64,000 nucleotides of DNA. It comes from Paraburkholderia sp. Tr-20389. GTDB taxonomy: Bacteria; Pseudomonadota; Gammaproteobacteria; Burkholderiales; Burkholderiaceae. The position numbers and the translations under genes are program-made. Below the pieces are notes generated by a model. The model was not told the origin of the DNA, ran no database searches, and saw only the letters and a list, made by a program, of their open reading frames with translations. Within the stretch, counting starts at the first letter, position 1; each line of letters begins with the position of its first letter. The stretch is from the NCBI RefSeq assembly GCF_017104565.1, contig NZ_JAAGPD010000050.1, positions 17,992-81,991 of the forward strand. The letters run 5' to 3'. Of this stretch, positions 22,447 to 61,985 are shown in pieces.

Positions 22447-23278
22447 AGGGTTTTTGCCTGCGGCGCGGCTTTGCCTTCCGGTTTGGTTTTTTTGCTGGTA
22501 TCCGCGTTGTGTTTTGATTTTCGCTGGCATCCGCGATTTCCAGCGCTGGCATCCGCGGTTTGCTTCTGGTTTGCTAGTGTTGCCCCTGTGCGGGGCGGCA
22601 CTTACTTTCTTTGCCGCCGCAAAGAAAGTAAGCAAAGAAAGCGGGCTCACACCGCTAGCCCTTGTTTTTGCCTGCGGGCCCCCGACAGTTCTTACGCTTC
22701 AGGCGGCAACGCGCTGATTTGCGCCCGTTGCCAGCGTGCTAACTCAAGCATCACCCGCTTCACACTCTCGCGTCACGGGCCGCGTTACCAGGCGTCCACT
22801 GCCGCCCAGGTGGCAAACTGTGTGTAGGCCATCGCGCCGGAAGTGCACCACTCCGGACGGAACAGCGGGATCGGTGTCGTAGGAGCGCGAACGCACGCGC
22901 TGCGACAACCTACACACAGTTTGCCACCTGGGCGGCACAAACCATTCGCTGCCGCTCGCTGCGCTACGGGTGATTGAAGAGGGTGATGCGCCTGTTCAAG
23001 GCGCTGGCAACGGGCACAAAACAAAGTGTTGCCGTGTGAAGTGCGGGACCCGTTGGGGGCCCGCAGGCAAGAACATGGGCTGGCGGTGTTAGCCCGCTTT
23101 CTTTGCTTACTTTCTTTGCGGCGGCAAAGAAAGTAAGTGCCGCCCCGCACAGGGGCAACACTAGCAAACCAGAAGCAAAACGCGGATGCCAGCGCAACAC
23201 AACGCGAAAGCCAGCGAAAACCAAAAACCAAAAACCAAGAACCAAACCGGCAAAGCCCGCGCCTCGAAGGCACAAACC
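22447..23278. repeat. long palindromic intergenic element, copy 1
   Basis: The core 22579-23159 (581 bp) starts GTTGCCCCTGTGCGGGGC and ends with its reverse complement. Each arm holds a perfect 14-bp hairpin (CTTACTTTCTTTGC / GCAAAGAAAGTAAG), a GGCAAC...GTTGCC hairpin and GC-rich stems. The 28-bp inner repeats 22801-22828 and 22909-22936 are perfect reverse complements around an 80-bp centre. Flanking arms extend the palindrome outward. The right end touches the upp stop codon at 23279. Both arms are subfamily 1. ORFs inside are shadows of this structure. Confidence 0.9.
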
Positions 23279-23929
23279 TTAATTCTTGGTCCCAAACAAC
23301 CGATCCCCGGCATCGCCGAGACCCGGAATAATGTACGCATGCTCGTTCAGATGCGAATCGAGCGAAGCCACAAACAGCTTCACATCGGGATGCGCATCCT
23401 GAAACACTTTCACGCCCTCGGGCGCGGCGACGAGCGCCAAAAACGAAATGTTCTCGCCCGCGACACCGCGGCGCTTCAGCACATCGATCGCATGCACGGC
23501 CGAATACCCCGTCGCAACCATCGGATCGCACAGGATGAAAATCCGGTCCTCGAGATCCGGCAGGCGCACCAGATACTCGACAGGGCGATGATCGTCGTCG
23601 CGATACACGCCGATATGACCGACCCGCGCCGACGGAATCAGCTCGAGCAGGCCGTCCGACATGCCGACGCCCGCCCGCAGCACGGGCACGATCGCGAGCT
23701 TCTTGCCGGCGATCACGGGCGCGTCGATGTCGACGAGCGGCGTGCTCACGCGACGCGTCGTCATCGGCAGGTTGCGGGTGATTTCATAGCCCATCAGCAG
23801 CGTGATCTCGCGCAGCAACTCGCGGAACGTCCGCGTGGACGTGTCGCGGTCGCGCATGTGCGACAGCTTGTGCTGGATCAGCGGGTGATCGAGGATGAAA
23901 AGATTGGGAAAACGGCTGTCCTGAGTCAT
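23279..23929 (-). CDS. upp: uracil phosphoribosyltransferase
   Basis: This 216-aa salvage enzyme makes UMP from uracil and PRPP. It has the PRPP-binding loop [13 protein letters not shown] and the C-terminal uracil-binding [18 protein letters not shown] 23929 gives the standard [20 protein letters not shown] start. The stop codon directly abuts palindromic element copy 1, so its 3' UTR is that element. It is divergent from the SDR gene. Confidence 0.97.
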
Positions 23930-24208
23930 GACGGGGCGCCTCGCGGCGAAGTTGGGCTGGCTGATGATCGTCTGGGGACGTTCTGGCAATTCTCTGGCGC
24001 GGCGCTCACGCGGCCCACAAGGGCGGCGGTGCGCACTGCGCCGTGACTGGGAGTTTACCGGAAGGGACGGCGCCTGATGAAAGGTATTGCAGCCAGGCCC
24101 GGCAGCGCCGCGTCGATTCTTCTAGAATCGGGGGACAGTTGACCGACCACCCCGGCGCAATACGCGGCAGCTTGGCCGCGTCGCGCGCACGACAACAGGA
24201 ATAAGCAC

Positions 24209-24988
24209 ATGGATCTGGGCATCGCAGGAAAAACCGCGCTGGTGTGCGCGGCGAGCAAGGGATTGGGGCGCGGCTGCGCCGAGGCGCTCGCGGCCGAAGG
24301 CGTGAACGTGACGATCGTCGCGCGCACCGCTGAAACGCTCGAAGCGACGGCGGCCGCCATCCGCGCGAACGCGGGCGTCGACGTGCAGGCCGTGGCCTGC
24401 GACATCACTACGCCCGAAGGCCGCGCCGCGGCGCTCGCCGCCTGCCCGCAGCCGGACATCCTCGTCAACAACGCGGGCGGCCCGCCACCCGGCGACTTCC
24501 GCAACTTCACGCACGACGACTGGATCCGCGCGCTCGAAGCGAACATGCTGACGCCGATCGAACTGATTCGCGCGACCATCGACGGAATGATGTCGCGCGG
24601 CTTCGGGCGCGTGGTGAACATCACGAGTTCGTCGGTGAAGGCGCCCATCGACGTGCTCGGTCTGTCGAACGGCGCGCGCTCGGGGCTGACGGGCTTCGTC
24701 GCGGGCGTCGCGCGCAAGGTCGCGCCGAACGGCGTGACGATCAACAACCTGCTGCCGGGCATTTTCGACACGGACCGCATCGCCGTGACGTTCGACGCCG
24801 CGGCAAAAACGCAGAACATCTCCGTCGACGAAGCGCGCAAGCAGCGCATGGCGACGATTCCGGCGCGCCGCTTCGGCACACCGGACGAGTTCGGCCGCGC
24901 CTGCGCGTTCCTGTGCAGCGTGCACGCGGGCTATATCACGGGACAGAACTGGCTGATCGACGGCGGCGCTTACCCGGGCACGTACTGA
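24209..24988 (+). CDS. SDR-family protein lacking the YxxxK catalytic pair
   Basis: This 259-aa Rossmann-fold protein has the NAD(P) motif as CAASKGLGRG, the NNAG motif (VNNAGGPP) and the Ser region NITSSSVKAP. Where active SDRs have Tyr-x-x-x-Lys, the sequence reads LSNGARSGL, so both residues appear missing. The C-terminus GYITGQNWLIDGGAYPG is family-typical. It fits the FabG-like SDR subgroup with altered active sites. Function unknown; ordinary reductase activity should not be assumed. Confidence 0.85.
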   Translation: MDLGIAGKTALVCAASKGLGRGCAEALAAEGVNVTIVARTAETLEATAAAIRANAGVDVQAVACDITTPEGRAAALAACPQPDILVNNAGGPPPGDFRNFTHDDWIRALEANMLTPIELIRATIDGMMSRGFGRVVNITSSSVKAPIDVLGLSNGARSGLTGFVAGVARKVAPNGVTINNLLPGIFDTDRIAVTFDAAAKTQNISVDEARKQRMATIPARRFGTPDEFGRACAFLCSVHAGYITGQNWLIDGGAYPGTY

Positions 24989-25060
24989 CGTGCCGCGCCG
25001 CGGCACATCGCGAACACCCATAACGACAACACACGACGACAACACAAGAGGAGCAACGAC

Positions 25061-25450
25061 ATGACAACACGCGTCGCGCTGATCGCGCACGATCACAAGA
25101 AGGACGACATCGTCAAACTGGCGGGGGAGTACGTCGACACGCTCGCACGCTGCGAGTTGCTCGCGACGGGCACGACGGGAGGCCGCATCGCCGATACGCA
25201 CGGTCTGAAGGTCGAGCGGATGCTGTCCGGTCCGCATGGCGGCGACCTGCAGATCGGTGCACAACTGGCCGAAGGCCGTGTCGACATGGTGATCTTCCTG
25301 CGTGACCCGATGACGCCGCAGCCGCATGAACCCGATATCAACGCTCTGGTCCGTGCGTGCGACGTCCACAACGTGCCCTGTGCCACGAATATCTCGACGG
25401 CACGGATGATCCTCGACGTGTTGACGCTGCGTCTCGCGCAGCAGGTCTGA
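25061..25450 (+). CDS. mgsA: methylglyoxal synthase
   Basis: This 129-aa enzyme converts dihydroxyacetone phosphate to methylglyoxal and phosphate, a glycolytic bypass used under phosphate limitation or sugar phosphate build-up. Conserved pieces are [20 protein letters not shown] for phosphate binding, and [15 protein letters not shown] with the catalytic Asp. GAGGAG precedes the ATG. A quinone reductase gene follows in the same direction. Confidence 0.96.
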
Positions 25451-25514
25451 TGGCGTCGTCCGATTTCATTCACGCAATGCGCGCCACTCGGGCGCGAACG
25501 AATCTGGAGACAAC

Positions 25515-26489
25515 ATGACCAAGGCAATTCGATTCGACAAGACGGGCGGCCCGGAAGTGATGAAGTGGGTCGACGTCGAGGTGGGCGAACCGGGCAATGG
25601 CGAGATCCGCATCAGGCAGCATGCTGTCGGCCTGAACTATATCGACGTGTATTTCCGCACCGGGCTGTATCCGCTGCCGCTGCCGGGCGGGCTCGGCATG
25701 GAAGCGGCGGGCGAGGTGGTCGCGGTCGGTCCGGACGTGACGGACGTGAAAGTGGGCGAGCGCGTCGCGTATGTCGCGCGGCCGCCGGGCGCGTACGCGC
25801 AGGAGCGCGTGCTGTCCGCGGCGCAGGTCGTGAAGCTGCCTGACGCGATCGGCTATGAAGAGGCGGCCTCCGTCATGTTGCAGGGCTTGACCGCCCAATA
25901 TCTGCTGCGCCGCACGTACCCGGTCAAGCAGGGCGACACGATTCTGATCCAGGCGGCCGCGGGCGGCGTCGGCCTGCTCGTGTGCCAGTGGGCAAAGGCG
26001 CTGGGCGCGACAGTGATCGGCACGGTCAGCTCCGACGAGAAGGCGGAGATCGCGCAGGCGCACGGCTGCGACTATCCCATCGTCTATACGCGCGAGAACT
26101 TCACGAAGCGCGTGCGCGAAATCACGAACGGCGCAGGCGTGCCCGTCGTGTACGACTCGATCGGCAAGGATACCTTTACGGCCTCGCTCGACTGTCTTGC
26201 GCCGCTCGGGATGTTCGTGAGCTTCGGCAATGCGTCGGGCCCGCTGCCGCCCATTGATTCGTCGGAGTTCGCCGGGCGCGGCTCGCTCTTCTTCACGCGG
26301 CCAACCCTCTTCACCTATATGGGCAAGCGTAGCGACTACGACGCGATGGCGGCCGAACTGTTCGACGTGATCGGCTCGGGCAAGGTGAAGACGAGCATCA
26401 ATCAGCGCTATGCGCTGTCAGATGTCGGCAAGGCGCACGCCGATCTGGAGGCACGGAAAACGACGGGGTCGACGGTTTTGCTGCCTTGA
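25515..26489 (+). CDS. qor: NADPH:quinone oxidoreductase (zeta-crystallin type MDR)
   Basis: This 324-aa zinc-independent medium-chain reductase reduces quinones or enals with NADPH. The N-terminal GroES-like part (LNYIDVYFRTGLYPLPLP) is followed by the Rossmann motif QAAAGGVGLLVCQWAKALGA and GRGSLFFTRPTLFTY. It lacks the Cys/His ligands of zinc MDR enzymes. It lies 64 bp after mgsA and may share its transcript. Confidence 0.92.
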   Translation: MTKAIRFDKTGGPEVMKWVDVEVGEPGNGEIRIRQHAVGLNYIDVYFRTGLYPLPLPGGLGMEAAGEVVAVGPDVTDVKVGERVAYVARPPGAYAQERVLSAAQVVKLPDAIGYEEAASVMLQGLTAQYLLRRTYPVKQGDTILIQAAAGGVGLLVCQWAKALGATVIGTVSSDEKAEIAQAHGCDYPIVYTRENFTKRVREITNGAGVPVVYDSIGKDTFTASLDCLAPLGMFVSFGNASGPLPPIDSSEFAGRGSLFFTRPTLFTYMGKRSDYDAMAAELFDVIGSGKVKTSINQRYALSDVGKAHADLEARKTTGSTVLLP

Positions 26490-26760
26490 GGATTTTCGCC
26501 TCGCGACCATGCATGTTGCATGGGGCGCGAGATTGACGCGCGTATGCGGCCAGTTGTATCCAGTCGGCGTACGCGCGTCAACCCACAGTTGGTGCGCCGG
26601 GCGACGCCCCGACAATCGATGTGGTGCCATACATCAAGCAATGCGCATCGTGTTTACCTCCAGCTGACTATATACTTCTGCGGCGACTCGAAGTTCGCAT
26701 TAAATGATTGGTTGTACTTATCTATAAATTGATTCGGTATCCATACTTATAAAAACGCCA

Positions 26761-28752
26761 ATGAAACTGTTAGCCAGCCTCATCACCCTGTCTTTTTTTG
26801 CAGTCGCTCACGCGCAACCTGTGCCGGCGTCGAGCGCTCCCAGCGCCGGCTCGGACATTGCGTCAAAGGACGCAACGGCAGCCACGCTGCGCGCGAACGA
26901 CCAGATACGCTCCCAGCTGAACTTCTCCGACCGGCGCGACTTCGACGATGCACGGCGCGGCTTCATCGCCACCCTGCCGCAGCCGGTGCTCAAAGGCAGC
27001 GGCGGGCGCACCGTCGTCGATCTGACGAAATACGACTTCCTGCGCAACACTGACGCCGCGCCGCCCACGGTCAATCCGAGCCTGTGGCGTCAGGAGCAGA
27101 TTCTGGCCATCCACGGCCTGTTCAAGGTGGTGGACGGCATCTATCAGGTTCGCAACATCGACCTGGCCAACATCACCTTCGTGCGCGGCAAGACGGGCTG
27201 GATCGTCGTCGATACGGGCAGCTCCGAGGAAAGCGCGAAGGCAGCGCTCGATCTCATCAACGACAAGGTGGAGCGCCTGCCTGTCTCGGCCGTCATCATT
27301 ACGCACAGCCATGTGGATCACTTCAGCGGCTTGCGCGGCGTCGTCAGCGAGCAGGACGTCCGCTCCGGCAAAGTGAAGCTGATCGCACCCGATGGCTTCA
27401 TGGAAGAGGCCGTCAGCGAGAACGTATTCGCGGGCAACGCGATGAGCCGTCGCGCGTCGTACATGTACGGCGATCTGCTGCCGAAGAGCCCGCGCGGCAC
27501 GGTCGGCAGCGGGCTCGGGCTCGTCAACGCGACGGGCACGCTGACCCTGCTGCAGCCGAATACGCTGGTGCACAAGACGGGCGAAAAGCTCACGGTGGAC
27601 GGCATCGATGTCGTGTTCCAGATGGCGCCCGGCACGGAAGCGCCTGCGGAAATGCTGTTCTACTTCCCGCAATACAAGACGCTCGACGTCGCCGAGGACG
27701 CGACCCATTCGCTGCACAATCTGCTGACGCTGCGCGGCGCGAAGGTCCGCGATGCGGGGAAATGGGCAGAAGCGCTCGACCAGACCATCGACATGTTCGG
27801 CGGCGACGTCGCGGTGTCGATGGCCAGCCACCACTGGCCGCAATGGGGCAACGACCGCGTCGTCGAACATCTGAAGAAGCAGCGCGATCTGTACAAGTAC
27901 ATCAACGACCAGACGCTGCGCATGGCGAACGAAGGCCTGACGATGCACGAAATCGCCGAACAGTTCGTGCTTCCCGATGCGCTCGCGAAGGAGTTCTACA
28001 ACCGCGGCTACTACGGCAATCTGAAGCACGACGTTCGCGCGACCTATCAGATGTATCTCGGCTGGTGGGACGCGAACCCGGCGAACCTCGATCCGCTGCC
28101 GCCGGCGGAGGAAGCGAAGCGCTACGTCGACCTGATCGGCGCGGACAACATCATGGCCAACGCGCGCAAGGCGTTCGAGCAAGGCGACTATCGCTGGGTC
28201 GCGACGATCACGAGCAAACTCGTGTTCGCGCAACCGGAAAACCAGGCGGCGCGCCAGCTCGAGGCCGATGCGCTCGAGCAGCTCGGCTATCAGACCGAGT
28301 CGGGACCGGTGCGCAACGTGTACCTGACTGGCGCGGAAGAACTGCGCAACGGCATCCGCAAGATGGCTGCGCCTAACACCGCAGCGCCCGACATCATCGC
28401 GGCCATGACGACGGACATGTTCCTCGACTTCCTCGCGATTCATCTGAACGGCCCGCGCGCCGCCGACGTCCATTACACGTTCAACCTCGTGCTGCCCGAC
28501 GCGAACGAGCGCTACGCGGTCACGGTCGAAAACGGCGTGATGATCCACAGCAAGGGCAAGACGCTGCCGAATGCCGACGCAACCATCACTTTCGACCGTT
28601 CTACACTGGATGACATCGCGCTCGGCAAGCTGCGCCTGACGGATCTCGCGGATAGCGGGAAAGTGAAGTTCGAGGGCGACAGGGCCGGGTTCAAGGCGCT
28701 GCTCGGACTGTTCGACAAGTTCGACTACTGGTTCGCGATCACGACGCCGTAA
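26761..28752 (+). CDS. secreted alkyl/aryl-sulfatase, metallo-beta-lactamase fold (SdsA1-like)
   Basis: This 663-aa protein begins with a signal peptide (MKLLASLITLSFFAVAHA, cleavage after about residue 18), placing it in the periplasm. The binuclear zinc motif THSHVDH lies at residues 181-187; later HHWPQWGN and TLRG segments and a C-terminal SCP2-like domain complete the type III alkylsulfatase layout. These enzymes release sulfate from alkyl sulfates such as SDS. The 271-bp upstream gap turns AT-rich next to the ATG, unlike its surroundings. Confidence 0.9.
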   Translation: MKLLASLITLSFFAVAHAQPVPASSAPSAGSDIASKDATAATLRANDQIRSQLNFSDRRDFDDARRGFIATLPQPVLKGSGGRTVVDLTKYDFLRNTDAAPPTVNPSLWRQEQILAIHGLFKVVDGIYQVRNIDLANITFVRGKTGWIVVDTGSSEESAKAALDLINDKVERLPVSAVIITHSHVDHFSGLRGVVSEQDVRSGKVKLIAPDGFMEEAVSENVFAGNAMSRRASYMYGDLLPKSPRGTVGSGLGLVNATGTLTLLQPNTLVHKTGEKLTVDGIDVVFQMAPGTEAPAEMLFYFPQYKTLDVAEDATHSLHNLLTLRGAKVRDAGKWAEALDQTIDMFGGDVAVSMASHHWPQWGNDRVVEHLKKQRDLYKYINDQTLRMANEGLTMHEIAEQFVLPDALAKEFYNRGYYGNLKHDVRATYQMYLGWWDANPANLDPLPPAEEAKRYVDLIGADNIMANARKAFEQGDYRWVATITSKLVFAQPENQAARQLEADALEQLGYQTESGPVRNVYLTGAEELRNGIRKMAAPNTAAPDIIAAMTTDMFLDFLAIHLNGPRAADVHYTFNLVLPDANERYAVTVENGVMIHSKGKTLPNADATITFDRSTLDDIALGKLRLTDLADSGKVKFEGDRAGFKALLGLFDKFDYWFAITTP

Positions 28753-33693: not shown

Positions 33694-34531
33694 TGGTTTT
33701 TGATGTCTGCGACGCAAGCGCCATGTTTGCCTTCTCGGCGCGGGCTACGCCTTTTGGTTTTTGCTCTGCGCTTTCGCTGGCCTCCGCGGTTTGCTTCTGG
33801 TTTGCTGGCGTTGCCCCTGTGCGGGGCGGCACCTACTTTTCTTTGCAGCGGCAAAGAAAAGTAGGCAAAAGAAAGCCGCTCACCCCGCTAGCTCTTGTGC
33901 TTGCCTGCGGGCCCCCAACGGGTCCCGCACTTCGCGCGGCAACGCGCTAATTTATGCTCGTTGCCAGCGCTCTTATAACCGCATCACCCACTTCACACTC
34001 CCGCGTCACCGACCGCATTACCAGGAAGTCCACGGCCGCCCAGGTGGCAAACTGTGTGTAGGTCGTCGCGATCAAAGTGCACCACTCCGGACTGAACTTC
34101 GAGATCGGTGTCGTAGGATCGCCAACGTGTACGGTGCGACCGCCTACACGCAGTTTGCCACCTGGGCGGCGCAGACGAGTCGCTGCCGCTGGATGTGCTA
34201 CGGGGGATTGAAGCGGGTGATGCGTCTGTTCAGGGCGCTGGCAACGGGAGGAAAGAAGTATGTTGCCGCGTGGGGCGTAAGAACTGTCGGGGGCCCGCAG
34301 GCAATCACTGGCACTGGCGGGGTTAGCGGCTTTCTTTTGCCTACTTTTCTTTGCCGCTGCAAAGAAAAGTAGGTGCCGCCCCGCACAGGGGCAACGCCAG
34401 CAAACCAGAAGCAAAAACGCGGATGCCAGCGAAAGCAAAAAGCCGAAGGCAAGACCGAAACCCAAAGGCGAAGCCCGCGCCGAGAAGGCCAGACTGGCGC
34501 CTGCGTCGCAGACAAGAAAAAACCCAAAAAC
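33694..34531. repeat. long palindromic intergenic element, copy 2
   Basis: The core is 33810-34395 (586 bp) and the outer arms reach the kdpC stop codon on the left. Both arms are subfamily 2: the main hairpin is CCTACTTTTCTTTGC / GCAAAGAAAAGTAGG with an AGCG loop. The outer boundary motif TGTCTGCGACGCA near 33706 is mirrored near 34508-34525. The central asymmetric segment (GTGCACCACTCCGGA ... GATCGGTGTCGTAGGA) is in plus orientation. It lies inside the Kdp gene cluster. Confidence 0.9.
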
Positions 34532-38204: not shown

Positions 38205-38252
38205 GTGGCAAGGACGGCCTTGCTGCATCCGCTTTCAACGGGGACGGCCCCA
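38205..38252 (+). promoter_or_regulatory. guanidine-II (mini-ykkC) riboswitch
   Basis: Two hairpins with identical ACGG loops define the class. P1 is GCAAGG-ACGG-CCTTGC (38208-38223) and P2 is GGGG-ACGG-CCCC (38240-38251), joined by a 16-nt linker. The element lies just downstream of a TATAAT box and ends 23 nt before the ATG of an SMR-family gene of the guanidinium-exporter type. In this class, guanidine stabilises loop-loop contact between the hairpins and frees the ribosome-binding site. Confidence 0.92.
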
Positions 38253-38274
38253 TCGATCAATGGGAGTTCGTCTC

Positions 38275-38595
38275 ATGTCCTGGATTCTTCTCTTTATCGC
38301 CGGTCTGCTGGAAGTTGCGTGGGCGGCCGGTCTCAAGACCTCCGAAGGTTTCACTCGTTTCTGGCCGTCGGTGTTCACCGTCGTGACGGCGCTCGGCAGT
38401 TTCGTGCTGCTCGCAATGGCTATGCGGCAGTTGCCGCTGGGAACCGCTTACGCGGTGTGGACGGGGATTGGCGCCGTCGGCGCGTTTATCTTCGGCATCG
38501 TCATGATGGGTGAAGCGGTGACCGTTGCACGCGTTGGCAGCGCGGTGCTCATTGTTGTGGGGTTGATCGGGCTTAAGTTGTCGTCGGGGCATTAA
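38275..38595 (+). CDS. sugE: guanidinium exporter, SMR family (Gdx/SugE)
   Basis: This 106-aa protein has four transmembrane helices and starts [20 protein letters not shown]. The conserved membrane Glu (about residue 13) and the [14 protein letters not shown] loop are typical of SugE/Gdx proteins, which export guanidinium in exchange for protons. The guanidine-II riboswitch upstream independently supports this substrate. ATG 38275 is preferred to the upstream in-frame ATG at 38260. The TAA stop is followed at once by palindromic element copy 3. Confidence 0.95.
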
Positions 38596-39445
38596 GGTTT
38601 TTTTGTTGTCTGCGACGCAGTCGCCATTGTTGCCTTCTCGGCGCGGGCTTCGCCTCTTGGGTTTCGGTCTTGCCTTCGGCTTTTTGCTTTCGCTGGCATC
38701 CGCGTTTTTGCTTCTGGTTTGCTGGCGTTGCCCCTGTGCGGGGCGGCACCTACTTTTCTTTGCAGCGGCAAAGAAAAGTAGGCAAAAGAAAGCCGCTAAC
38801 CCCGCCAGTGCCAGTGCTTGCCTGCGGGCCCCCGACAGTTCTTACGCTCCACACGGCAACGTACTTCTTTTCTCCCGTTGCCAGCGCCCTGAACAGACGC
38901 ATCACCCGCTTCAATCCCCCGTAGCACATCCAGCGGCAGCGACTCGTCTGCGCCGCCCAGGTGGCAAACTGTGTGTAGGCGGTCGCGCCGTACACGTTGG
39001 CGCTCCTACGACACCGATCCAGAAGTTCAGTCCGGAGTGGTGCATTTGCGTCGAGACAGCCTACACATAGTTTGCCACCTGGGCGGCAGTGGGACGTCTG
39101 GTAACGCAGTCCGCGTCGCGGGAGTGTGGAGTGGGTGATGCGTGCATTAGCACGTTGGCAACGCGCGAAAGCAAGTGCGTTGCCGCGTGAAGCGTAAGAA
39201 CTGATGGGGGCCCGCAGGCAACAAGTAGCACTGGCGGTGTGAGCCCGCTTTCTTTGCTTACTTTCTTTGCGGCGGCAAAGAAAGTAAGTGCCGCCCCGCA
39301 CAGGGGCAACGCATGAACTACCAACACCAAAACGCGGATGCCAGCAACAGCAACAGCAACAGCAAAAAACCAAACCGACAGGCGAAGCCGCGCCGCAGGC
39401 AAAAACCGGCAAAACCGCGCCGCAGGCAAAACCCGAAAACGAGCC
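38596..39445. repeat. long palindromic intergenic element, copy 3 (hybrid arms)
   Basis: The core is 38727-39310 (584 bp). The left arm is subfamily 2 (CCTACTTTTCTTTGC hairpin) while the right arm is subfamily 1 (CTTACTTTCTTTGC hairpin). The asymmetric centre is inverted relative to copies 1, 2 and 4. The left boundary follows the sugE stop codon immediately with GG, a T-run and TGTCTGCGACGCAG. The right flank contains CAACAG-type tandem units (about 39342-39366) and a duplicated CGCGCCGCAGGCAAAA. Confidence 0.9.
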
Positions 39446-47830: not shown

Positions 47831-48421
47831 TCAGACGCGCTCGCGGCGGTCCGCCCACTTGTCCTGCGACGGCGGCTGATAGCGTTGCAGCTTGCCGATC
47901 AGCGCAGCGGGGTCGCTGTCGATCTGCAGGATGTCGAAGTACGTCTGGCGCATGAAGCCTTCCTGCACGGTGTGTTCGAGCATCGAGATCAGCGGATCGT
48001 AGAAGCCGTCGATGTTGAGCACGGCCACGGCCTTCTGGTGATAGCCGAGCTGCGCCCACGTGAAGACCTCGAACAGTTCTTCGAGCGTGCCTGCACCGCC
48101 CGGCATCGCGACGAATGCGTCGGACAGGTCGGCCATCATCTTCTTGCGATGATGCATGTCGGGCACGACGTGCAGTTCCGACAGACCGTTGTGGCCGACT
48201 TCCTTGTTGACCAGCAGTTCGGGGATCACGCCGATTGCGCGGCCGCCTGCGGCCATCACTTCATCGGCGATCACGCCCATCAGGCCGACCTTGCCGCCGC
48301 CGTAGACGAGCGACAGGTTTGCCGCGACCAGCGCGCGGCCGAACGCTTTGGCGGCGTCGCGATACAGCGGTTTGGCTCCGTCTGACGAGCCGCAATAGAC
48401 GCAGACTGCCTTCATCTTCAA
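47831..48421 (-). CDS. LOG-family nucleotide 5'-monophosphate phosphoribohydrolase
   Basis: This 196-aa protein of the former 'lysine decarboxylase-like' TIGR00730 family begins VCVYCGSSDG and carries the active-site motif PGGAGTLEELFEVFTWAQLG. Relatives release free cytokinin or nucleobase from riboside monophosphates. ATG 48421 overlaps the TetR stop by 4 nt; the third codon is also ATG. It is in one run with the TetR and SDR genes. Confidence 0.92.
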   Translation of the reverse strand: MKMKAVCVYCGSSDGAKPLYRDAAKAFGRALVAANLSLVYGGGKVGLMGVIADEVMAAGGRAIGVIPELLVNKEVGHNGLSELHVVPDMHHRKKMMADLSDAFVAMPGGAGTLEELFEVFTWAQLGYHQKAVAVLNIDGFYDPLISMLEHTVQEGFMRQTYFDILQIDSDPAALIGKLQRYQPPSQDKWADRRERV

Positions 48422-49134
48422 CTGTCCTTCGATTCGTTACGCGGTTCGCGCGGCGGCAGGTAGTCGTAGAACTCGCGCTGCGGGTGCTTGCCCGACACGA
48501 GATCGTCGAACAGTTCGCGCGAGCGGCCGCGCAGATACGGCGCCATCAGCGACACGATCTGCACGCTGACCTGATGCAGTTCTGCGCGGATCGTTTCCTG
48601 CTCGTTGTATTTGCGCGGGTTCATCACGAACTGGTACGACAGCCAGTACGTTGCGATCACGCCGATGTTGGTAGCGATCACCTTGATTTCATCGGGTGTC
48701 GCGACCATTTCGCCGTCGGCGACGAGTTGTTCGCAGAACTGGCTCGCGAAGCGCACTTTGTGGCTGATGATCTGCTTGAAGTGCGTTTCGAGGGTGCGGT
48801 TGCGTGCGAGCAGGTCGTTCAGGTCGCGGTACAGGAAACGGTAGCGCCAGGTGAAGTCGACCATGTACTGCAGATACGACCACATTTCGTCGATGGTCGC
48901 GCGATGGTCTTCCGGAAAACGCAGACGCTTTTCGATCTCCTGCTCGAACTGGCTGAAGATGCTGTTGATGATGTCGTCTTTGTTGCGGAAGTGGTAGTAC
49001 AGGTTGCCTGGACTGATCTCCATTTCCTCGGCGATCGTCGTCGTCGTGACGTTCGGCTCGCCGATCTCGTTGAAGAGCTTCAACGATAGTTCGAGAATCC
49101 GTTCGCGCGTGCGGCGGGGAGGTTTGGCTTCCAT
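48418..49134 (-). CDS. TetR-family transcriptional regulator
   Basis: This 238-aa regulator has an N-terminal helix-turn-helix domain (ILELSLKLFNEIGEPNVTTT through SPGNLYYHFRNKDDI) and a helical ligand domain. ATG 49134 starts the conserved domain; the 78-residue upstream frame runs into a Thr-Pro repeat that is the complement of a TTGGGG array, not protein. It overlaps the LOG-family gene and may control the three-gene run. Confidence 0.92.
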   Translation of the reverse strand: MEAKPPRRTRERILELSLKLFNEIGEPNVTTTTIAEEMEISPGNLYYHFRNKDDIINSIFSQFEQEIEKRLRFPEDHRATIDEMWSYLQYMVDFTWRYRFLYRDLNDLLARNRTLETHFKQIISHKVRFASQFCEQLVADGEMVATPDEIKVIATNIGVIATYWLSYQFVMNPRKYNEQETIRAELHQVSVQIVSLMAPYLRGRSRELFDDLVSGKHPQREFYDYLPPREPRNESKDS

Positions 49135-49289
49135 GTCGTCCGGCCCAGGGGTGTGACGGGCGGTTTTGTACGCCCGTAATTGCGGCGCGCGTCTCCACTC
49201 GTCTTTTGGTTGGCTGTAGTTGAGGCTTCTTGTGATTATAAACCGAGCGTTCAGTGCGGACCGCAGGGGGCTGAGGGAGGGGTGGGGTG

Positions 49290-49313
49290 TTGGGGTTGGG
49301 GTTGGGGTTGGGG
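49290..49313. repeat. (TTGGGG)4 tandem array, potential G-quadruplex
   Basis: Four uninterrupted TTGGGG units occur on the plus strand, followed by TTGG and TTTTGG runs. Four G4 tracts with 2-nt loops can form an intramolecular G-quadruplex. It lies between the TetR start and palindromic element copy 4, where other copies have their T/G-rich outer shoulder. Confidence 0.85.
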
Positions 49314-49320
49314 TTGGTTT

Positions 49321-50032
49321 TGGTTTTGTTGTTAACGCTGGCATCCGCGATTTCACGTCGGTGTTCATGCGTTGCCCCTGTGCGGGGCGGCACTTACTTT
49401 CTTTGCCGCCGCAAAGAAAGTAAGCAAAGAAAGCGGGCTCACACCGCCAGTGCTAGTGATCGCCTGCGGGCCCCCAACAGTTCCTACACTCCACGCGGCA
49501 ACGCGCCCGTTCGCGCCCGTTGCCAGCGTGCTAGCTGCACGCATCACCCGCTTCACACTCCCGCGTCACGGCCTGCGTTACCAGAATTCGACTGCCGCCC
49601 AGGTGGCAAACGATGTGTAGGCCGTCGCGACGGAAGTGCACCACTCCGGACTGAAAAGCGGGATCGGTGTCGTAGGATCGCCAACGCATCTGGTGCGACA
49701 AGCTACACACAGTTTGCCACCTGGGCGGCGCTGACGAGTCGCTGCCGCAGGCTGCGCTACGGGTGAATGGAGTGGGTGATGCGCCTGTTCAGGGCGCTGG
49801 CAACGGGCGTTGAAACGGGCGTTGCCGTGTGGAGTGCGGGACCCGTTGGGGGCCCGCAGGCAGGGACAAGGATTGGCGGTTTGAGCCCGCTTTCTTTGCT
49901 TACTTTCTTTGCGGCGGCAAAGAAAGTAAGTGCCGCCCCGCACAGGGGCAACGCATGAACAACGACAACATCACGCGGATGCCAGCCAAAACACAAACCC
50001 GCACCAAGGCCTCGCAGACAGAACCAAAACCG
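49321..50032. repeat. long palindromic intergenic element, copy 4
   Basis: The core is 49371-49952 (582 bp), with both arms of subfamily 1 and the asymmetric centre in plus orientation. The inner inverted repeat is slightly decayed on the left (GGTGGCAAACGATGTGTAGG). The right end reaches the dgkA stop codon at 50033; read from dgkA, the stop is followed by CGG, TTTTGG and TCTGTCTGCGA. The left end merges with the TTGGGG array near the TetR start. Confidence 0.9.
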
Positions 50033-53025: not shown

Positions 53026-53334
53026 TGATTGAAGTGGGTGAGGCGATCGCGAGAGCGCGGGTAACGAGCATGGACCAGTTCGTTACCGCGCGGAGGATGG
53101 GGACGTTGAGCCCCGTGGCTAAAGGTCAAGGATTGGCGGTGTGAGCGGCTTTCTTTTGCCTACTTTTCTTTGCCGCTGCAAAGAAAAGTAGGTGCCGCCC
53201 CGCACAGGGGCAACGCATGAGCGACCAACACCAAAACGCGGATGCCAGCGAAAGCGAAAGCAAAAACAAAAACCAAAACCGGCAAAGCCGCGCCGCAGGC
53301 AAAAATCGCGACTACGTCGCAGACAAAAAACAGA
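53026..53334. repeat. half-copy of the palindromic intergenic element, copy 5
   Basis: Only the right arm is present. It contains a diverged GGTAACGA / TCGTTACC hairpin (about 53058-53085), a subfamily 2 main hairpin (CCTACTTTTCTTTGC, 53158-53172) and the terminal GGGGCAAC at 53207-53214. No left arm and no inner inverted repeat remain. The outer flank ends at the stop codon of the RDD gene at 53335, with the boundary motif TCTGCGACGTAGTCGC read from that gene. Confidence 0.85.
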
Positions 53335-55133: not shown

Positions 55134-55693
55134 AGCGTGATTCCTTTGGCCTTGAGCGCTTGCGCCAGCGTGTGCGTGGCTCGCGAGCAGTGCGTTTTCA
55201 CACTGCCTTCCGAGCAGCCCATCGCGGCAGCAGTCTCAGCGACATCCATATCTTCCCAGTAACGCATCAGAAACGCCTCCCGTTGACGTGCCGGCAACTT
55301 TTGGATTTCGTCGTCGATCATCTGCAGGACCTGTTCGCGCTCGAGCTGCTGCTCGCTGCTCTCTACGCCCGTCGAGCCGTCCTGACTTTCGAACGTCTCC
55401 AGCGGGTCGAAGTCTTCGTCGTCGGCATTGCCCAGCGAAGAAAACAGGCTCACCCAGGTATTGCGAACCTTCTGCCGACGGAAATAGTCGTGCATCGCAT
55501 TCTGGAGAATACGCTGAAACAAAAGCGGCAGCTCAGCAGCCGGACGGTCGCCGTATTTTTCGGCGAGCTTGATCATCGCGTCCTGCACGATATCGAGAGA
55601 CGCGTCGTCGTCCCGCACGGCGTAGACCGTCTGCTTGAACGCGCGCCTTTCGACGCCCGCCAGAAAATCGGCGAGTTCCTTGTCTGATGCCAT
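55130..55693 (-). CDS. ECF-like RNA polymerase sigma factor
   Basis: This 187-aa protein has sigma region 2 (DDDASLDIVQDAMIKLAEKY, then FQRILQNAMHDYFRRQKVRN) and region 4 (LPARQREAFLMRYWEDMDVA, then ETAAAMGCSEGSVKTHCSRA), joined by an acidic linker. It leads a run with DUF3619, DUF3106 and RDD genes and overlaps the first. Which promoters it reads is unknown. Confidence 0.93.
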   Translation of the reverse strand: MASDKELADFLAGVERRAFKQTVYAVRDDDASLDIVQDAMIKLAEKYGDRPAAELPLLFQRILQNAMHDYFRRQKVRNTWVSLFSSLGNADDEDFDPLETFESQDGSTGVESSEQQLEREQVLQMIDDEIQKLPARQREAFLMRYWEDMDVAETAAAMGCSEGSVKTHCSRATHTLAQALKAKGITL

Positions 55694-56100
55694 CCGTTGG
55701 GGGTCGGCGCAGCGAATGTGCGCGGAATCGGTCGAAAAATGTCGTAAAACTCGCGGATGCTAACAAACTTTCACCCGACCCAGGGAAAAACGCGGCACGC
55801 GTACCTTGCATCCAGCCTTCAGTCGCACTTCGTGCTGTCCGTTCGACGCCCGCGTAAGCCGCCCGTAAAACGGTCAGAAGTGGACGACGAAAGGGCAGGT
55901 GCCGTCAATCATGGAAATATTTGCTTGACCATTGGACGTATCGTCGATATCGTCTACGGTTCGCAACATAAGTGACTTGTCTCATTTGAGGTTGGCCCAA
56001 GAAGCCTTCCTGTCAAACTGGACGCGCCGCTTGAACCCGAGCCACAAGCCCGGCAGAGAGCACCCGATCAATTTTTTGCCGAAAATTCGAAAGGTGAACG
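55694..56100. promoter_or_regulatory. 407-bp divergent promoter region, sigma factor / ilvB
   Basis: No gene is visible. Rightward, TTGACC at 55925-55930 with a 17-bp spacer to TATCGT at 55948-55953 is a reasonable sigma-70 promoter, giving a leader of about 140 nt before ilvB. An overlapping TTGGAC-17-TACGGT pair is an alternative. Unlike leuA, I see no branched-chain-rich leader peptide here. Confidence 0.5.
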
Positions 56101-57864
56101 ATGAATATGCCCAGCGCGGAATTCTCCACGTCGGATACCACACCACATCACGAAGCTGACTCTATCGGCGCCACCGTGCTCATGAAGGCACTGGCCGACG
56201 AAGAAGTCGAATTCGTCTGGGGCTATCCCGGCGGCTCGGTACTCTACATCTACGACGAGCTTTACAAGCAGGATAAATTCCAGCACGTCCTCGTGCGCCA
56301 CGAGCAGGCCGCGGTTCACGCCGCTGACGCCTATGCTCGCTCGACCGGCAAGGTCGGCGTCTGCCTCGTGACCTCCGGTCCCGGCGTCACCAATGCAGTG
56401 ACGGGCATCGCGACCGCCTATATGGATTCGATCCCGATGGTCGTCATCAGCGGCCAGGTGCCGACTGCCGCGATCGGCCAGGATGCGTTCCAGGAGTGCG
56501 ATACGGTCGGCATCACGCGCCCCTGCGTGAAGCACAACTTCCTCGTGAAGGACGTGCGCGATCTCGCCGCCACCGTCAAGAAAGCTTTCTACATCGCCCG
56601 TACGGGCCGGCCCGGTCCGGTGCTGATCGACATTCCGAAGGACGTGTCGAAGGCCCCGTGCCAATACGAGCCGATCAAAAACGTGACGCTGCGCTCGTAT
56701 AACCCGGTCACCAAGGGTCATTCGGGCCAGATCCGCAAGGCGGTTGCGCTTCTGCTGTCGGCCAAGCGTCCGTATATCTACACGGGCGGCGGCATCATCC
56801 TCGCGGATGCGTCGCGCGAACTGAACCAGTTCGCCGATCTGCTCGGCTATCCCGTCACGAACACGCTGATGGGTCTGGGCGGCTATCGCGCAGCGGACAA
56901 GAAGTTCCTCGGCATGCTCGGCATGCACGGCACGTACGAAGCCAACATGGCGATGCAGCACTGCGACGTGCTGATCGCGATCGGTGCGCGTTTCGACGAC
57001 CGTGTGATCGGCGATCCGGGTCACTTCGCATCGCGCCCGCGCAAGATCATTCACATCGACATCGACCCGTCGTCGATTTCGAAGCGCGTGAAGGTCGATA
57101 TCCCGATCGTCGGCGACGTGAAGGAAGTGCTGAAGGAACTGATCGAGCAGTTGCAAACGGCGGAGCATGGCCCCGACACCGCGGCGCTCGCCGACTGGTG
57201 GAAGGACATCGAAGCCTGGCGCTCGAAAGACTGCCTGAAGTTCGACCGCGAGAGCGACATCATCAAGCCGCAATACGTGGTGGAAAAGGCGTGGGAACTG
57301 ACGGACGGCAATGCCTTCGTGTGTTCCGATGTCGGCCAGCACCAGATGTGGGCGGCGCAGTTTTATCGCTTCAACAAGCCGCGCCGCTGGATCAATTCCG
57401 GTGGTCTCGGCACGATGGGCTTCGGCCTGCCGGCGGCGATGGGCGTCAAGATGGCACACCCGGACGACGACGTGCTCTGTATCACGGGCGAAGGCTCGAT
57501 CCAGATGTGCATCCAGGAGCTGTCCACCTGCAAGCAGTACGAGACGCCCGTTAAGATCATCTCGCTCAACAACCGCTATCTGGGCATGGTGCGCCAGTGG
57601 CAGCAGATCGAATACAGCAAGCGCTATTCGCATTCGTACATGGATGCGCTGCCCGATTTCGTGAAGCTCGCCGAAGCGTACGGCCACGTCGGCATGCGGA
57701 TCGAAAGGACCGCTGACGTGGAACCGGCGCTGAAGGAAGCATTGCGCCTGAAAGATCGCACGGTGTTTCTCGACTTCCAGACCGATCCGACCGAAAACGT
57801 CTGGCCGATGGTCCAGGCCGGCAAGGGCATCACGGAGATGCTCCTCGGGTCGGAAGATCTATAA
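56101..57864 (+). CDS. ilvB: acetolactate synthase, large (catalytic) subunit
   Basis: This 587-aa ThDP enzyme condenses pyruvate to acetolactate, or pyruvate with 2-oxobutyrate, in Ile/Val/Leu synthesis. The N-terminal ThDP-binding Glu region (VRHEQAAVHAADAYARSTGK), the FAD-binding middle domain and the C-terminal ThDP motif around GEGSIQMCIQELSTCKQY are all present. AAAGGTGAACG precedes ATG 56101; the third codon is also ATG. It is first in the ilvB-ilvN-ilvC run. Confidence 0.97.
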   Translation: MNMPSAEFSTSDTTPHHEADSIGATVLMKALADEEVEFVWGYPGGSVLYIYDELYKQDKFQHVLVRHEQAAVHAADAYARSTGKVGVCLVTSGPGVTNAVTGIATAYMDSIPMVVISGQVPTAAIGQDAFQECDTVGITRPCVKHNFLVKDVRDLAATVKKAFYIARTGRPGPVLIDIPKDVSKAPCQYEPIKNVTLRSYNPVTKGHSGQIRKAVALLLSAKRPYIYTGGGIILADASRELNQFADLLGYPVTNTLMGLGGYRAADKKFLGMLGMHGTYEANMAMQHCDVLIAIGARFDDRVIGDPGHFASRPRKIIHIDIDPSSISKRVKVDIPIVGDVKEVLKELIEQLQTAEHGPDTAALADWWKDIEAWRSKDCLKFDRESDIIKPQYVVEKAWELTDGNAFVCSDVGQHQMWAAQFYRFNKPRRWINSGGLGTMGFGLPAAMGVKMAHPDDDVLCITGEGSIQMCIQELSTCKQYETPVKIISLNNRYLGMVRQWQQIEYSKRYSHSYMDALPDFVKLAEAYGHVGMRIERTADVEPALKEALRLKDRTVFLDFQTDPTENVWPMVQAGKGITEMLLGSEDL

Positions 57865-57975
57865 CGAGCGCTTTCCGGCGCCGGCTACGTCATGCGCGTC
57901 TCCACAAAAGACGGGAGCGGACGTAGCGGCGCGGACAGCACGCATCGCATACATCGACATCTGGAAGAAGCGAAC

Positions 57976-58467
57976 ATGAGACACATCATTTCCGTTTTGC
58001 TGGAAAACGAACCGGGCGCGCTGTCGCGCGTGGTCGGCCTGTTCTCCGCACGCGGCTACAACATCGAAACCTTGACGGTGGCGCCGACCGAAGACCGTTC
58101 GCTGTCGCGCATGACCATCGTTTCCATTGGCTCGGACGACGTGATCGAACAGATCACGAAGCATCTGAACCGCCTGATCGAGGTGGTGAAAGTGGTCGAC
58201 CTGACCGAGGGCGCCCACATCGAGCGCGAGCTGATGCTGATCAAGGTAAGGGCGGTCGGCAAGGAACGTGAGGAGATGAAGCGGATGTCGGATATTTTCC
58301 GCGGCCGCATCATCGACGTCACCGAAAAGACCTACACGATCGAACTGACGGGCGCGAGCGAGAAGCTCGACGCGTTCATCGAAGGGCTCGACGCCACCGC
58401 GATTCTCGAAACGGTCCGCACGGGCGGTTCGGGTATCGGGCGCGGCGAGCGTATCCTGAAGGTTTGA
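57976..58467 (+). CDS. ilvN: acetolactate synthase, small (regulatory) subunit
   Basis: This 163-aa subunit has an N-terminal ACT domain (MRHIISVLLENEPGALSRVV) and the C-terminal ALS_ss_C domain. It activates IlvB and confers valine feedback inhibition. ATG 57976 gives the family start; the upstream in-frame extension to 57892 is leader sequence. It lies 111 bp after ilvB. Confidence 0.97.
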   Translation: MRHIISVLLENEPGALSRVVGLFSARGYNIETLTVAPTEDRSLSRMTIVSIGSDDVIEQITKHLNRLIEVVKVVDLTEGAHIERELMLIKVRAVGKEREEMKRMSDIFRGRIIDVTEKTYTIELTGASEKLDAFIEGLDATAILETVRTGGSGIGRGERILKV

Positions 58468-59583
<1,116 letters not shown>

Positions 59584-59601
59584 TCTGCCCGTTTTTTGCA
59601 C

Positions 59602-59669
59602 TCCGGCGCACGAAATGCGCCGGAAGCCTCAAAAAGCCGCCCAGGTGTGCTGAACCCTGGGCGGCTTTT
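59602..59669 (+). terminator. tandem hairpin terminator after ilvC
   Basis: The first hairpin TCCGGCGCA / TGCGCCGGA (59602-59624) has no T-run. The second, AAAAGCCGCCCAGG / CCTGGGCGGCTTTT (59632-59669), is flanked by A and T runs and is a strong intrinsic terminator, separating ilvBNC from psd. Confidence 0.88.
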
Positions 59670-59707
59670 GCTATCCTACGGTTTTTAAAAAGACTGAACC
59701 CAACCTT

Positions 59708-60346
59708 ATGAATTACCCCCATCCGATCATCGCGCGCGAAGGCTGGCCGTTTATCGCCATCGCGGCCGTCGTTGCGTTGTTGATCCACTTCGTCGCAGGG
59801 TTCGGCATTGCCTGGATTTTCTGGCTGTTGCTCGTCTTCGTGGTGCAGTTCTTCCGCGACCCGGCGCGTCCGATTCCGACCCAGGCCAACGCGGTGCTGT
59901 GCCCGGCCGACGGCCGCATCGTCGCCGTCGAAACGGCGCACGATCCCTACGCGAACCGCGAAGCGCTGAAAATCAGCGTGTTCATGAACGTGTTCAACGT
60001 GCACTCGCAGCGCTCGCCCGTGGATGGCGCAATCTCGAAGGTCGAATATTTCCCGGGCGCGTATCTGAACGCCGCAGTGGACAAGGCGTCGACGGAAAAC
60101 GAACGTAACGCAATCGTCATCGAAACGGCGAGTGGCGCGACGGTGACGTCGGTACAGATTGCCGGCCTGATCGCGCGACGCATCCTCTGCTACGTGCGCG
60201 CCGGCGAGCCGCTGACGCGCGGCCAGCGTTATGGCTTCATCCGTTTCGGATCGCGGGTCGACGTGTACCTGCCTGTGGGCAGCCGTCCGCGTGTGTCGAT
60301 CGGCGAGAAGGTGTCGGCGTCGTCCACGATTCTGGCTGAGCTGTAA
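59708..60346 (+). CDS. psd: phosphatidylserine decarboxylase proenzyme (short type)
   Basis: This 212-aa enzyme converts phosphatidylserine to phosphatidylethanolamine. Two hydrophobic segments occupy residues 14-50, followed by [10 protein letters not shown] and [17 protein letters not shown]. The self-cleavage Gly-Ser lies in [13 protein letters not shown], where Ser becomes the pyruvoyl group. It is 20 bp before pssA; the two catalyse consecutive steps. Confidence 0.96.
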
Positions 60347-60366
60347 AGCGGCACAGGGAGGGTTCG

Positions 60367-61239
60367 ATGGCCGCATTCAAACCGCGTCGTCCTCGTAGCA
60401 GCGGTGCGCCGCAGCCGCGTCCGTTCCGGCGCAACAAGCCGTCCGTGGTCACGGAATCCGTGATCGACAGCCGCCGCGCCGCGCGCCAGCAGTTTTTGCG
60501 CAAGCGCGGCATCTATCTGTTGCCCAATGCATTCACGACGGCCGCGCTGTTCTGCGGATTCTTCGCCGTCGTGCAGGCGATGAACGTGCGTTTCGAAGTC
60601 GCCGCGATCGCGATTTTTGTCGCGATGGTGCTCGACGGCATGGATGGGCGCGTCGCGCGCATGACGCACACCCAAAGCGCATTCGGCGAGCAGTTCGACA
60701 GCCTGTCGGACATGGTGTCGTTCGGCGTCGCGCCGGCGCTCGTGATGTACGAGTGGATTCTGAAGGACCTGGGGCGCTGGGGCTGGCTCGCGGCGTTCGT
60801 CTATTGCTCGGGCGCGGCGTTGCGTCTGGCTCGGTTCAACACGAATATCGGTGTTGTCGACAAGCGCTTCTTTCAGGGAATGCCGAGTCCTGCAGCCGCC
60901 GCGTTGATTGCTGGGTTCGTGTGGCTCGCCACGGATAACCGTGTGCCTTTGAAGCTCGTGTGGCTGCCTTGGGTCGCGTTTGCTTTGACCATTTATGCGG
61001 GCGTGACGATGGTGTCGAACGCGCCGTTCTACAGCGGTAAGGCGCTGGATGTGCGGCATCGCGTGCCGTTTGCCGCGATTCTGCTGGTGGTGGTCGCGTT
61101 TGTACTCGTGTCGTCGGACCCGCCGTTGATGTTGTTCGGTCTCTTCGTGCTGTACGGTTTTTCCGGGTATGTGTTCTGGGGGTATCGGGTGATGCGCGGG
61201 ATGGGGAATCCCGCCAGGTCGTCGCAGCGGCCGGGTTAA
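60367..61239 (+). CDS. pssA: CDP-diacylglycerol-serine O-phosphatidyltransferase
   Basis: This 290-aa membrane enzyme makes phosphatidylserine from CDP-diacylglycerol and serine. The CDP-alcohol phosphotransferase motif reads DGMDGRVARMTHTQSAFGEQ followed by FDSLSD. About eight membrane helices and a basic N-terminus rich in Arg/Pro are visible. AGGGAGG precedes ATG 60367. The TAA stop abuts palindromic element copy 6. Confidence 0.96.
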   Translation: MAAFKPRRPRSSGAPQPRPFRRNKPSVVTESVIDSRRAARQQFLRKRGIYLLPNAFTTAALFCGFFAVVQAMNVRFEVAAIAIFVAMVLDGMDGRVARMTHTQSAFGEQFDSLSDMVSFGVAPALVMYEWILKDLGRWGWLAAFVYCSGAALRLARFNTNIGVVDKRFFQGMPSPAAAALIAGFVWLATDNRVPLKLVWLPWVAFALTIYAGVTMVSNAPFYSGKALDVRHRVPFAAILLVVVAFVLVSSDPPLMLFGLFVLYGFSGYVFWGYRVMRGMGNPARSSQRPG

Positions 61240-61985
61240 GGTTTGGTTTCGTTTTTCGCCTGCGGCGGGCGTTTTTTCTCGCTGGCATCCGCGTGATGTC
61301 TTTGGTTCGCTCGCGTTGCCCCTGTGCGGGGCGGCACTTACTTTCTTTGCCGCCGCAAAGAAAGTAAGCAAAGAAAGCGGGCTCACACCGCCAGCCCGTG
61401 TCCCTGCCTGCGGGCCCCCAACGGGTCCCGCACTCCACACGGCAACACATCGTTTTGCGCCCGTTGCCAGCGCCTTGAACAGGCGCATCACCCACTTCAA
61501 TCACTCGCAGGCAGCCAGCGGCAGCGACTCGACTGTGCTGCCCAGGTGGCAAACTGTGTGTAGGTTGTCGCACCGGATGCGTTGGCGATCCTACGACACC
61601 GATCCCGCTTTTCAGTCCGAAGTGGTGCACTTTCGTCGCGATGGCCTACACACAGTTTGCCACCTGGGCGGCCGTGGACGTCTGGTAATGCGGGCCGTGA
61701 CGCGGGAGTGTGAAGCGGGTGATGCGTGAGTGAGCACGCTGGCAACGGGCGCGAACAAACACGTTGCCGCGTGGAGCGTAAGAACTGGTGGGGGCCCGCA
61801 GGCAACAACACAGGCTGGCGGTGTTAGCCCGCTTTCTTTGCTTACTTTCTTTGCGGCGGCAAAGAAAGTAAGTGCCGCCCCGCACAGGGGCAACGCCAGC
61901 AAACCAGAAGCAAAACGCGGATGCCAGAGAAAGCCGAAAACGAAAACCCAAAACGAAAACCCAAAACGAAAACCCGCCCGAAGGG
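61240..61985. repeat. long palindromic intergenic element, copy 6
   Basis: The core is 61315-61894 (580 bp), both arms subfamily 1, with the asymmetric centre in minus orientation (TCCTACGACACCGATC near 61590). The left boundary follows the pssA stop directly with GGTTTGG and a T-run. The right shoulder carries tandem AAAACGAAAACCC units (about 61940-61977). The leuA leader promoter begins 17 bp beyond it. Confidence 0.9.

Follow-up and report, generated by a model that had tools for sequence, protein, structure and literature searches.

A gene-less palindromic DNA element bounded by inward-facing end units with a predicted triplex–pseudoknot fold in Paraburkholderia, with end relatives in other Pseudomonadota

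A 64,000-nt stretch of the Paraburkholderia sp. Tr-20389 genome (contig NZ_JAAGPD010000050.1, positions 17,992 to 81,991; hereafter the window, with positions counted from its first letter) carries five complete copies and one half copy of a gene-less interspersed DNA element, in which two inward-facing end units bound a long near-palindrome. The end unit is predicted to be an intrastrand (purine-motif) triplex motif locked by a loop–tail pseudoknot. Of 398 Pseudomonadota genomes searched, 93 contain it; they belong to 42 of the 212 genera covered and to 19 families, namely 18 plus one outside the class, which supplies 48 of the 93 positive genomes; among near-complete clean genomes, 66 of 338 contain it (the E-values of the search model are rough). 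By sequence match, the interiors of the elements are clade-specific and the ends are not.

The end unit, 49–52 nt long, consists of a strand X (TACTTTCTTTG), a loop, a strand X' (CAAAGAAAGTA), a spacer, a third strand X'' (CAAAGAAAG) and a tail, an order fixed by aligning the genus forms with forms from distant genomes. X is a pyrimidine strand, and X' and X'' are purine strands. In the search model (R2), the X:X' hairpin is the sole pairing and the consensus letters span the whole unit, with neither the mirror rule nor the loop–tail pairing encoded; a second model, R1, was left out of the tests because it already contains loop–tail pairs. Among the 27 asymmetric units of 76 parsed, X'' is the mirror of X' in 19, its direct copy in none and neither in eight (14, 0 and 8 when only distinct forms are counted). 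The underlying set comprises 56 matches of a first set, 22 of 37 later matches and three typed forms, 76 of these 81 being parsed, and two of the 19 mirror units are typed host or relative forms.

The loop also pairs with the tail. At least four contiguous base pairs are present in 13 of 24 distinct loops, as compared with a mean of 2.1 and a maximum of 7 in 5000 shuffles, which ignore relatedness, an effect that the use of one sequence per distinct loop was meant to limit. These 24 loops come from loci outside the list in which the loop–tail idea arose; 56 of 98 matches entered the test and 52 were parsed, partial, antisense and same-locus repeat matches and two badly aligned 117-nt matches having been excluded by hand. 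Among later units, nine of 11 distinct loops, some of them common to the first set, pair in the same way (shuffles: mean 2.07, maximum 7). In addition, every one of four loop–tail pairs changes on both sides somewhere in a 14-sequence alignment, whose whole-structure covariation score is reached by none of 500 shuffles. From a 23-sequence alignment and no prescribed structure, RNAalifold derives the loop–tail pairs as its consensus. This alignment holds 23 of 34 forms and includes the 14 covariation sequences, the ones with a length of 49 nt. A purine third strand that runs antiparallel requires a mirror relation and leads back to the loop, with which the tail can pair; the mirror rule and the loop–tail pairing thus fit one fold. 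The two covariation signatures indicate that selection has kept this putative three-stranded fold over the 19 families.

The pairing of units into elements is seen in distant genomes as well. In four finished genomes from four families, 26 of 37 full-length units form 13 inward-facing pairs of 388–764 bp and 11 units are unpaired, while outward-facing pairs within 800 bp are absent (eight partial matches overlapping full ones are excluded from these counts). Long inverted arms are present in all 20 distant pairs tested, each with a score higher than any of its 20 shuffles (58 versus 31 at the lowest); the G+C of the pairs ranges from 0.37 to 0.69, and several of them share one genome. Two arrangements depart from this layout. 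A distant 1508-bp element (L267, 1501–3008) has intact arms and two small open reading frames (ORFs) between them, possibly cargo or an insertion. In the family outside the class, the end unit occurs in direct tandem, 318–327 bp apart (L276, 527–1874; L277, 1501–1865).

The initial annotation of the window had located five complete cores and a half copy, all at correct positions. GTTGCCCCTGTGCGGGGC begins on the plus strand at the first position of each complete core, and its complement terminates at the last position of each complete core and of the half copy. The features are given below; genes were called by a home-made heuristic rule and named by reading their translations by eye.

22579–23159, unstranded: complete core 1, 581 bp, between genes reading as upp and yebC
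22599–22647, plus strand: end unit, core 1 left, type A, putative triplex/pseudoknot motif
22802–22937, unstranded: core 1 central stem (GTGGCAAACTGTGTGTAGG with its inverse), in the clade-specific interior
23091–23139, minus strand: end unit, core 1 right, type A
33810–34395, unstranded: complete core 2, 586 bp, between genes reading as kdpC and kdpD
33830–33881, plus strand: end unit, core 2 left, type B
34324–34375, minus strand: end unit, core 2 right, type B
38727–39310, unstranded: complete core 3, 584 bp, left end type B and right end type A
38747–38798, plus strand: end unit, core 3 left, type B
39242–39290, minus strand: end unit, core 3 right, type A
49371–49952, unstranded: complete core 4, 582 bp
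49391–49439, plus strand: end unit, core 4 left, type A
49884–49932, minus strand: end unit, core 4 right, type A
53122–53214, minus strand: half copy, right end only
53143–53194, minus strand: end unit, half copy, type B
61315–61894, unstranded: complete core 5, 580 bp, between genes reading as pssA and leuA
61335–61383, plus strand: end unit, core 5 left, type A
61826–61874, minus strand: end unit, core 5 right, type A

The arm repeats of the window cores are 112–230 nt long and 79–87% complementary, with 258–266 nt between the arms; in all cores but one of the five, they extend slightly beyond the core into the flanks. As a single strand, core 1 folds with −450.9 kcal/mol (z −31 versus shuffles; z −24 for the complementary strand). 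Outside each end, a spacer of roughly 21 nt, which comes in several kinds, leads to CGCTGGCATCCGCG, beyond which the sequence is T-rich. The arms had been described as chains of hairpins, to which our analysis adds, at the ends, the pyrimidine–purine–purine mirror motif and the loop–tail pairing; the widely conserved portion is the end unit and not the core in its entirety.

As the annotation had supposed, the element is not restricted to the window; it occurs elsewhere in the host genome (9.0 Mb) and in other genomes. An 18-nt end sequence, with up to two mismatches, matches the host genome 130 + 126 times (reversed-pattern control, 0 + 0), and the central 18-mer, with up to three mismatches, 125 + 127 times (control, 4 + 8); these counts give about 120 complete copies. 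Their spacing, one per about 72 kb, is about seven times sparser than the one per 10 kb that had been projected genome-wide, and the density in the window is unusually high for the host genome. Of 48 complete host elements, read in the window and 40 further stretches, 46 measure 577–586 bp, and the two exceptions measure 508 bp and 1765 bp, the latter containing a transposase ORF that is IS5-like by eye (L038, 3460–4413). The near-constant core length that had been proposed thus holds within a species and differs among species (571–578 bp in P. diazotrophica, from 17 pairs among the matches listed).

The ends are of two types, A (CTTACTTTCTTTG...) and B (CCTACTTTTCTTTG...). Over 46 host elements, the combinations AA, AB and BB occur 21, 20 and 5 times, where independence expects 20.9, 20.2 and 4.9; for the end types, these counts show no sign of arm-to-arm correction within an element. 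In AB elements, the arms mismatch one another, yet either end retains its own local hairpin, so that what is preserved is the local fold.

Within the genus, 129 of 145 genomes contain an element match. Thirty of these 129 appear among the matches listed, in which 16 genomes align over the whole 581 bp and 14 further ones over 80–85 bp of an end at 98–100%. Among 200 genomes sampled from the family, the central motif stays close to its control in all the other 199. An 85-base end query matches 20 of 369 class genomes and, besides the host, mostly through its middle 35–50 bases. Across 14 genomes with named loci and the host, a genome has between 1 and about 150 ends (151 + 153 in Paraburkholderia sp. 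C35, 26 + 28 in P. diazotrophica, 8 + 11 in P. xenovorans and 1 + 0 in Trinickia mobilis). Matching plasmid records come from Paraburkholderia (9), Caballeronia (9) and Variovorax (1). A phage origin was rejected, a phage collection having given no match. Separately, two IMG/VR viral contigs (L248 and L249) contain the end unit.

Comparison of orthologous sites reveals that the presence of copies varies among species. At the kdpC–kdpD site, when genomes are ranked by kdpC similarity, the first 15 (83–100%) all have at least one end and 13 have both, and the next 15 (76–79%) have none. At the upp–yebC site, an end is present in nine of 30 genomes, two of the 30 loci being incomplete; at the pssA–leuA site, it is present in two of 80 named loci besides the window. 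The site orthologous to the half copy holds complete elements of 495–591 bp with a different interior in five other Paraburkholderia, and the genome nearest to the host by upp (G254) lacks the upp-site core and, by eye, has kept a shorter flanking palindrome. Across 12 kdpC–kdpD orthologues, identity is 0.98 in the outer 22 nt, 0.93 in the outer 64 nt and 0.68 in the interior. At the element-free franconis and diazotrophica sites, a terminator-like hairpin is recognized by eye, and the scan lists the one in diazotrophica only.

The explanation that we favour, with about even confidence, is a DNA-level, gene-less selfish repeat that spreads via replication and recombination. Anatomy, the two covariation signatures, spread and partial homogenization are read from the sequences, and from them we infer the stalling and copying steps of such a route. 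The fold would form in single-stranded DNA when the duplex opens at a replication fork or during repair, and the folded end would halt the polymerase. The stall could then provoke template switching or ectopic gene conversion between copies, by which the element would be copied, deleted and homogenized without a transposase; it would persist as a selfish or tolerated repeat, with selection excluding copies from promoters. Fold-driven template switching or conversion would explain why the ends stay constant over a fast-changing interior. PIT elements, a related kind discussed below, block DNA polymerase in vitro according to work cited by Holder et al. 2015 (PMC4666352). A wider statement, which we offer tentatively and consider doubtful, is that of a phylum-wide gene-less genome parasite: a DNA fold (triplex plus loop–tail pseudoknot) would be its one conserved part, and two inward-facing copies of this fold would cause the intervening palindrome to be copied, corrected and spread by the replication machinery, each lineage growing an interior of its own under an unchanging fold.

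Within-genome homogenization of the copies is partial. At the kdpC–kdpD site, same-genome copies are closer than orthologues by median identity for 11 of 12 copies. Several observations weigh against the selfish-repeat explanation or one of its parts. The twelfth kdpC–kdpD copy shows the opposite trend, and in two pairs of close species, orthologues resemble each other as much as paralogues do, with identities of 0.89 versus 0.83 (G219–G228) and 0.88 versus 0.90 (G217–G313), comparisons in which each non-host genome contributes one or two paralogues, mostly the most window-like. Eight of 27 asymmetric units fit neither rule, and six of the 49 symmetric ones deviate. End types are shared within an element no more often than by chance in the 46 host elements. 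A clean empty site was sought at pssA–leuA, upp–yebC and kdpC–kdpD, where the flanks are too divergent for a boundary, and no site examined gives a clean insertion boundary or a proven direction of change. The orientation of single units relative to GC skew, judged from 20 sampled stretches per genome, is consistent in one finished genome and not in another: unpaired units oppose the local skew in seven of seven cases in G1048 (two near weak or mixed skew), one of three in G1066 and one of one in G903. Furthermore, the available part of Holder et al. describes a stable BoxC triplex in vivo as unsupported and cites no in vivo effect of PIT elements (PMC4666352).

Movement in trans would account for some of the same features. 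The element could be non-autonomous and resemble a miniature inverted-repeat transposable element (MITE) or a REPIN, with a transposase or HUH nuclease recognizing the folded single-stranded end unit. HUH enzymes act on folded single-stranded ends, and the conserved inverted ends, their retention while interiors change, the high copy number in some species only and the presence or absence among species all agree with such a route. We nevertheless consider it unlikely. The sole Y1-type match in the host, a protein beside a gene reading as gltB, has GAVQ at the position of the canonical HUH motif and scores 52.1 against an NCBIfam RAYT cut-off of 80, and its 3.3-kb locus contains no end motif. 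The 235-aa Y1-transposase homologue of L178 (1459–2166), beside a gene reading as gltB and with GAVQ in place of a HUH motif, resembles a RAYT relative that has been domesticated and is catalytically dead. Y1 matches occur in 20 of 20 genomes searched, with GAVQ in 10 of the 20 loci, and also in genomes in which the four candidates scored gave no element match; further full-length or fragmentary Y1 genes are present in five of 20 genomes, and the loci read hold no end motif. An origin from RAYT/REPIN finds no support in the host genome, in which no RAYT with a catalytic HUH motif flanked by the repeat was detected; this search would overlook a RAYT that has diverged beyond the reach of the Pfam model.

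The description of a non-coding, palindromic intergenic family without a transposase-bearing parent is borne out among the elements read. By eye, no transposase is recognized in six loci with unpaired or odd ends, and no transposase-bearing relative among the host elements and unpaired ends, except for the inserted transposase ORF of the 1765-bp copy. Filled and empty pssA–leuA and upp–yebC sites differ over the whole intergenic region, and no target duplication is seen at the sites compared.

The setting of the element among genes raises a role at the transcript level. The 48 host elements lie in 19 convergent, 4 divergent, 24 tandem and 1 undetermined gene settings; the excess of convergent over divergent settings has a one-sided p of 0.0013, and 63 of 95 called flanking genes are transcribed toward the element (p 0.00096). 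This host gene-orientation bias supports either a transcript-level role at gene ends or simple promoter avoidance. A selected 3'-end element, whose folded transcript guards mRNA 3' ends or terminates transcription from both sides, would also agree with the 150 nt outside 92 host ends, which, read inward, have a T content of 0.372 and an A content of 0.081, with the short GC hairpin that stands ahead of the T-rich strand X, and with a positive reverse transcription PCR (RT-PCR) signal from a related B. pseudomallei segment (PMC3521395, in the part available). We hold this role to be improbable. The orientation bias does not extend to 19 distant pairs (20 of 36 flanking genes; the 20 tested pairs less L267), and core 2 is located between kdpC and kdpD. 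As intrinsic terminators, the flanks were rejected: terminator-like sites number nine of 92, no commoner than in shuffles (mean 7.4, maximum 13), and composition alone suffices. According to the part of PMC4666352 available, PIT elements are without promoter and terminator activity, and purine-motif triplexes do not form in RNA; therefore, the unit strand would fold as DNA, and folding as RNA could be expected of its complement.

It is very unlikely that the element serves as a chromosomal site bound by a conserved repair or other DNA-binding protein, with the repeated CTTTCTTTG boxes as the candidate recognition sequence: the box sequence is very constant over a phylum, but a mirror third box and covarying loop–tail pairs are unexpected for plain protein boxes, and 305 of 398 phylum genomes sampled have no match at threshold.

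Our comparison with known repeats points first to BoxC/PIT/TM_ECO, which Holder et al. 2015 (PMC4666352, from the part available, as for all statements from this source) report from 262 genomes of proteobacteria as GC-rich elements of pyrimidine–purine–purine order. Their loci are sometimes inverted pairs and are more variable than controls, and isolated BoxC/TM_ECO DNA is reported to form a triplex. Both kinds share the Class II pyrimidine–purine–purine order with a mirror third strand (19/0/8 here), an intergenic location, many copies, sometimes two of them inverted, and strong variation between related genomes. By comparison, the core of the present end unit is AT-rich (CTTTCTTT/AAAGAAA) instead of GC-rich (CCCTCNCCC/GGGNGAGGG), and it departs from the published consensus, CCCTCNCCC N3-6 GGGNGAGGG N3 GGGNGAGGG. 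It is further distinct in its loop, mostly 8 nt long, which pairs with the tail, and in that two inward-facing units commonly enclose a palindrome of 388–764 bp. The available main text mentions neither AAAGAAAG nor Burkholderia or Xanthomonas. The search of Holder et al. used loops of 1–6 nt, and the motif may be absent from that text because the unit loop is mostly 8 nt. Three of 53 distant loci contain the full TM_ECO pattern, at four places in all, of which two lie within the L085 element; none of 41 host sources read contains its hairpin part. In L085 (1745–1855), a BoxC/TM_ECO inverted pair is nested in a palindrome bounded by AT-rich units.

REP, BIME and REPIN elements are likewise intergenic palindromes, mosaic, in inverted pairs and of high copy number. 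They are, however, 20–40-nt palindromes tagged with GTAG or CGTC, as in the REPIN/RAYT definition of a palindrome with such a tag at one end (PMC3733652, in the part available), whereas the present unit is a 49–52-nt putative triplex unit, its type B end holds GTAG within the stem and not as a REP-style end tag, and the core is more than 10 times longer. In addition, no RAYT scores above the cut-off in the host genome. MITEs share the non-coding nature, the terminal inverted repeats and the lack of a transposase of their own; in the present element, the entire core is palindromic and not its ends alone, and no parent element or target duplication was found. The family had been called unrecognized, which holds in so far as no element of the window or of 20 distant loci reaches an Rfam gathering threshold; it does not hold for a piece of a related end with its flank, which is already in Rfam as RF02421 (Bp1_684, a Burkholderia small RNA candidate; PMC3521395, in the part available). 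This entry aligns with the right end and outer flank, scores 27.3 against a gathering threshold of 44 bits in the window, and spans neither the end unit in full nor the element. Literature searches listed no paper that describes the unit or the element, the one by sequence string giving two unrelated papers; the element looks like an undescribed kind of repeat, without a gene of its own and with end relatives in many proteobacterial families.

Bacterial intrastrand triplexes have so far been known mainly via sequence patterns and test-tube work, and the element makes it testable whether these folds arise in living cells and whether they are what makes intergenic repeats spread and become unstable. 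With it, a large class of repeats is defined, which gives spurious ORFs and overlaps at least one Rfam small RNA entry. In the window, ORFs cross the element and its flank at 48418–49368 and over core 1 (MNTDVKSRMPA..., ...TYFLCRRKESKQRK...), and ORFs of this kind are likely annotation artefacts. A protein-coding reading was rejected, as nothing exceeds the Pfam cut-off in the three tested of 16 stop-to-stop frames touching core 1 (best match Kringle, E 0.025, 15.3 versus 34.3 bits). The genes next to the window elements, among them upp, kdpC/kdpD, pssA and leuA, are of ordinary chromosomal kinds. Core 3 lies downstream of a small gene (38260–38595, SMR-type exporter-like) that sits under a guanidine-II riboswitch located just upstream of it, at 38206–38252.

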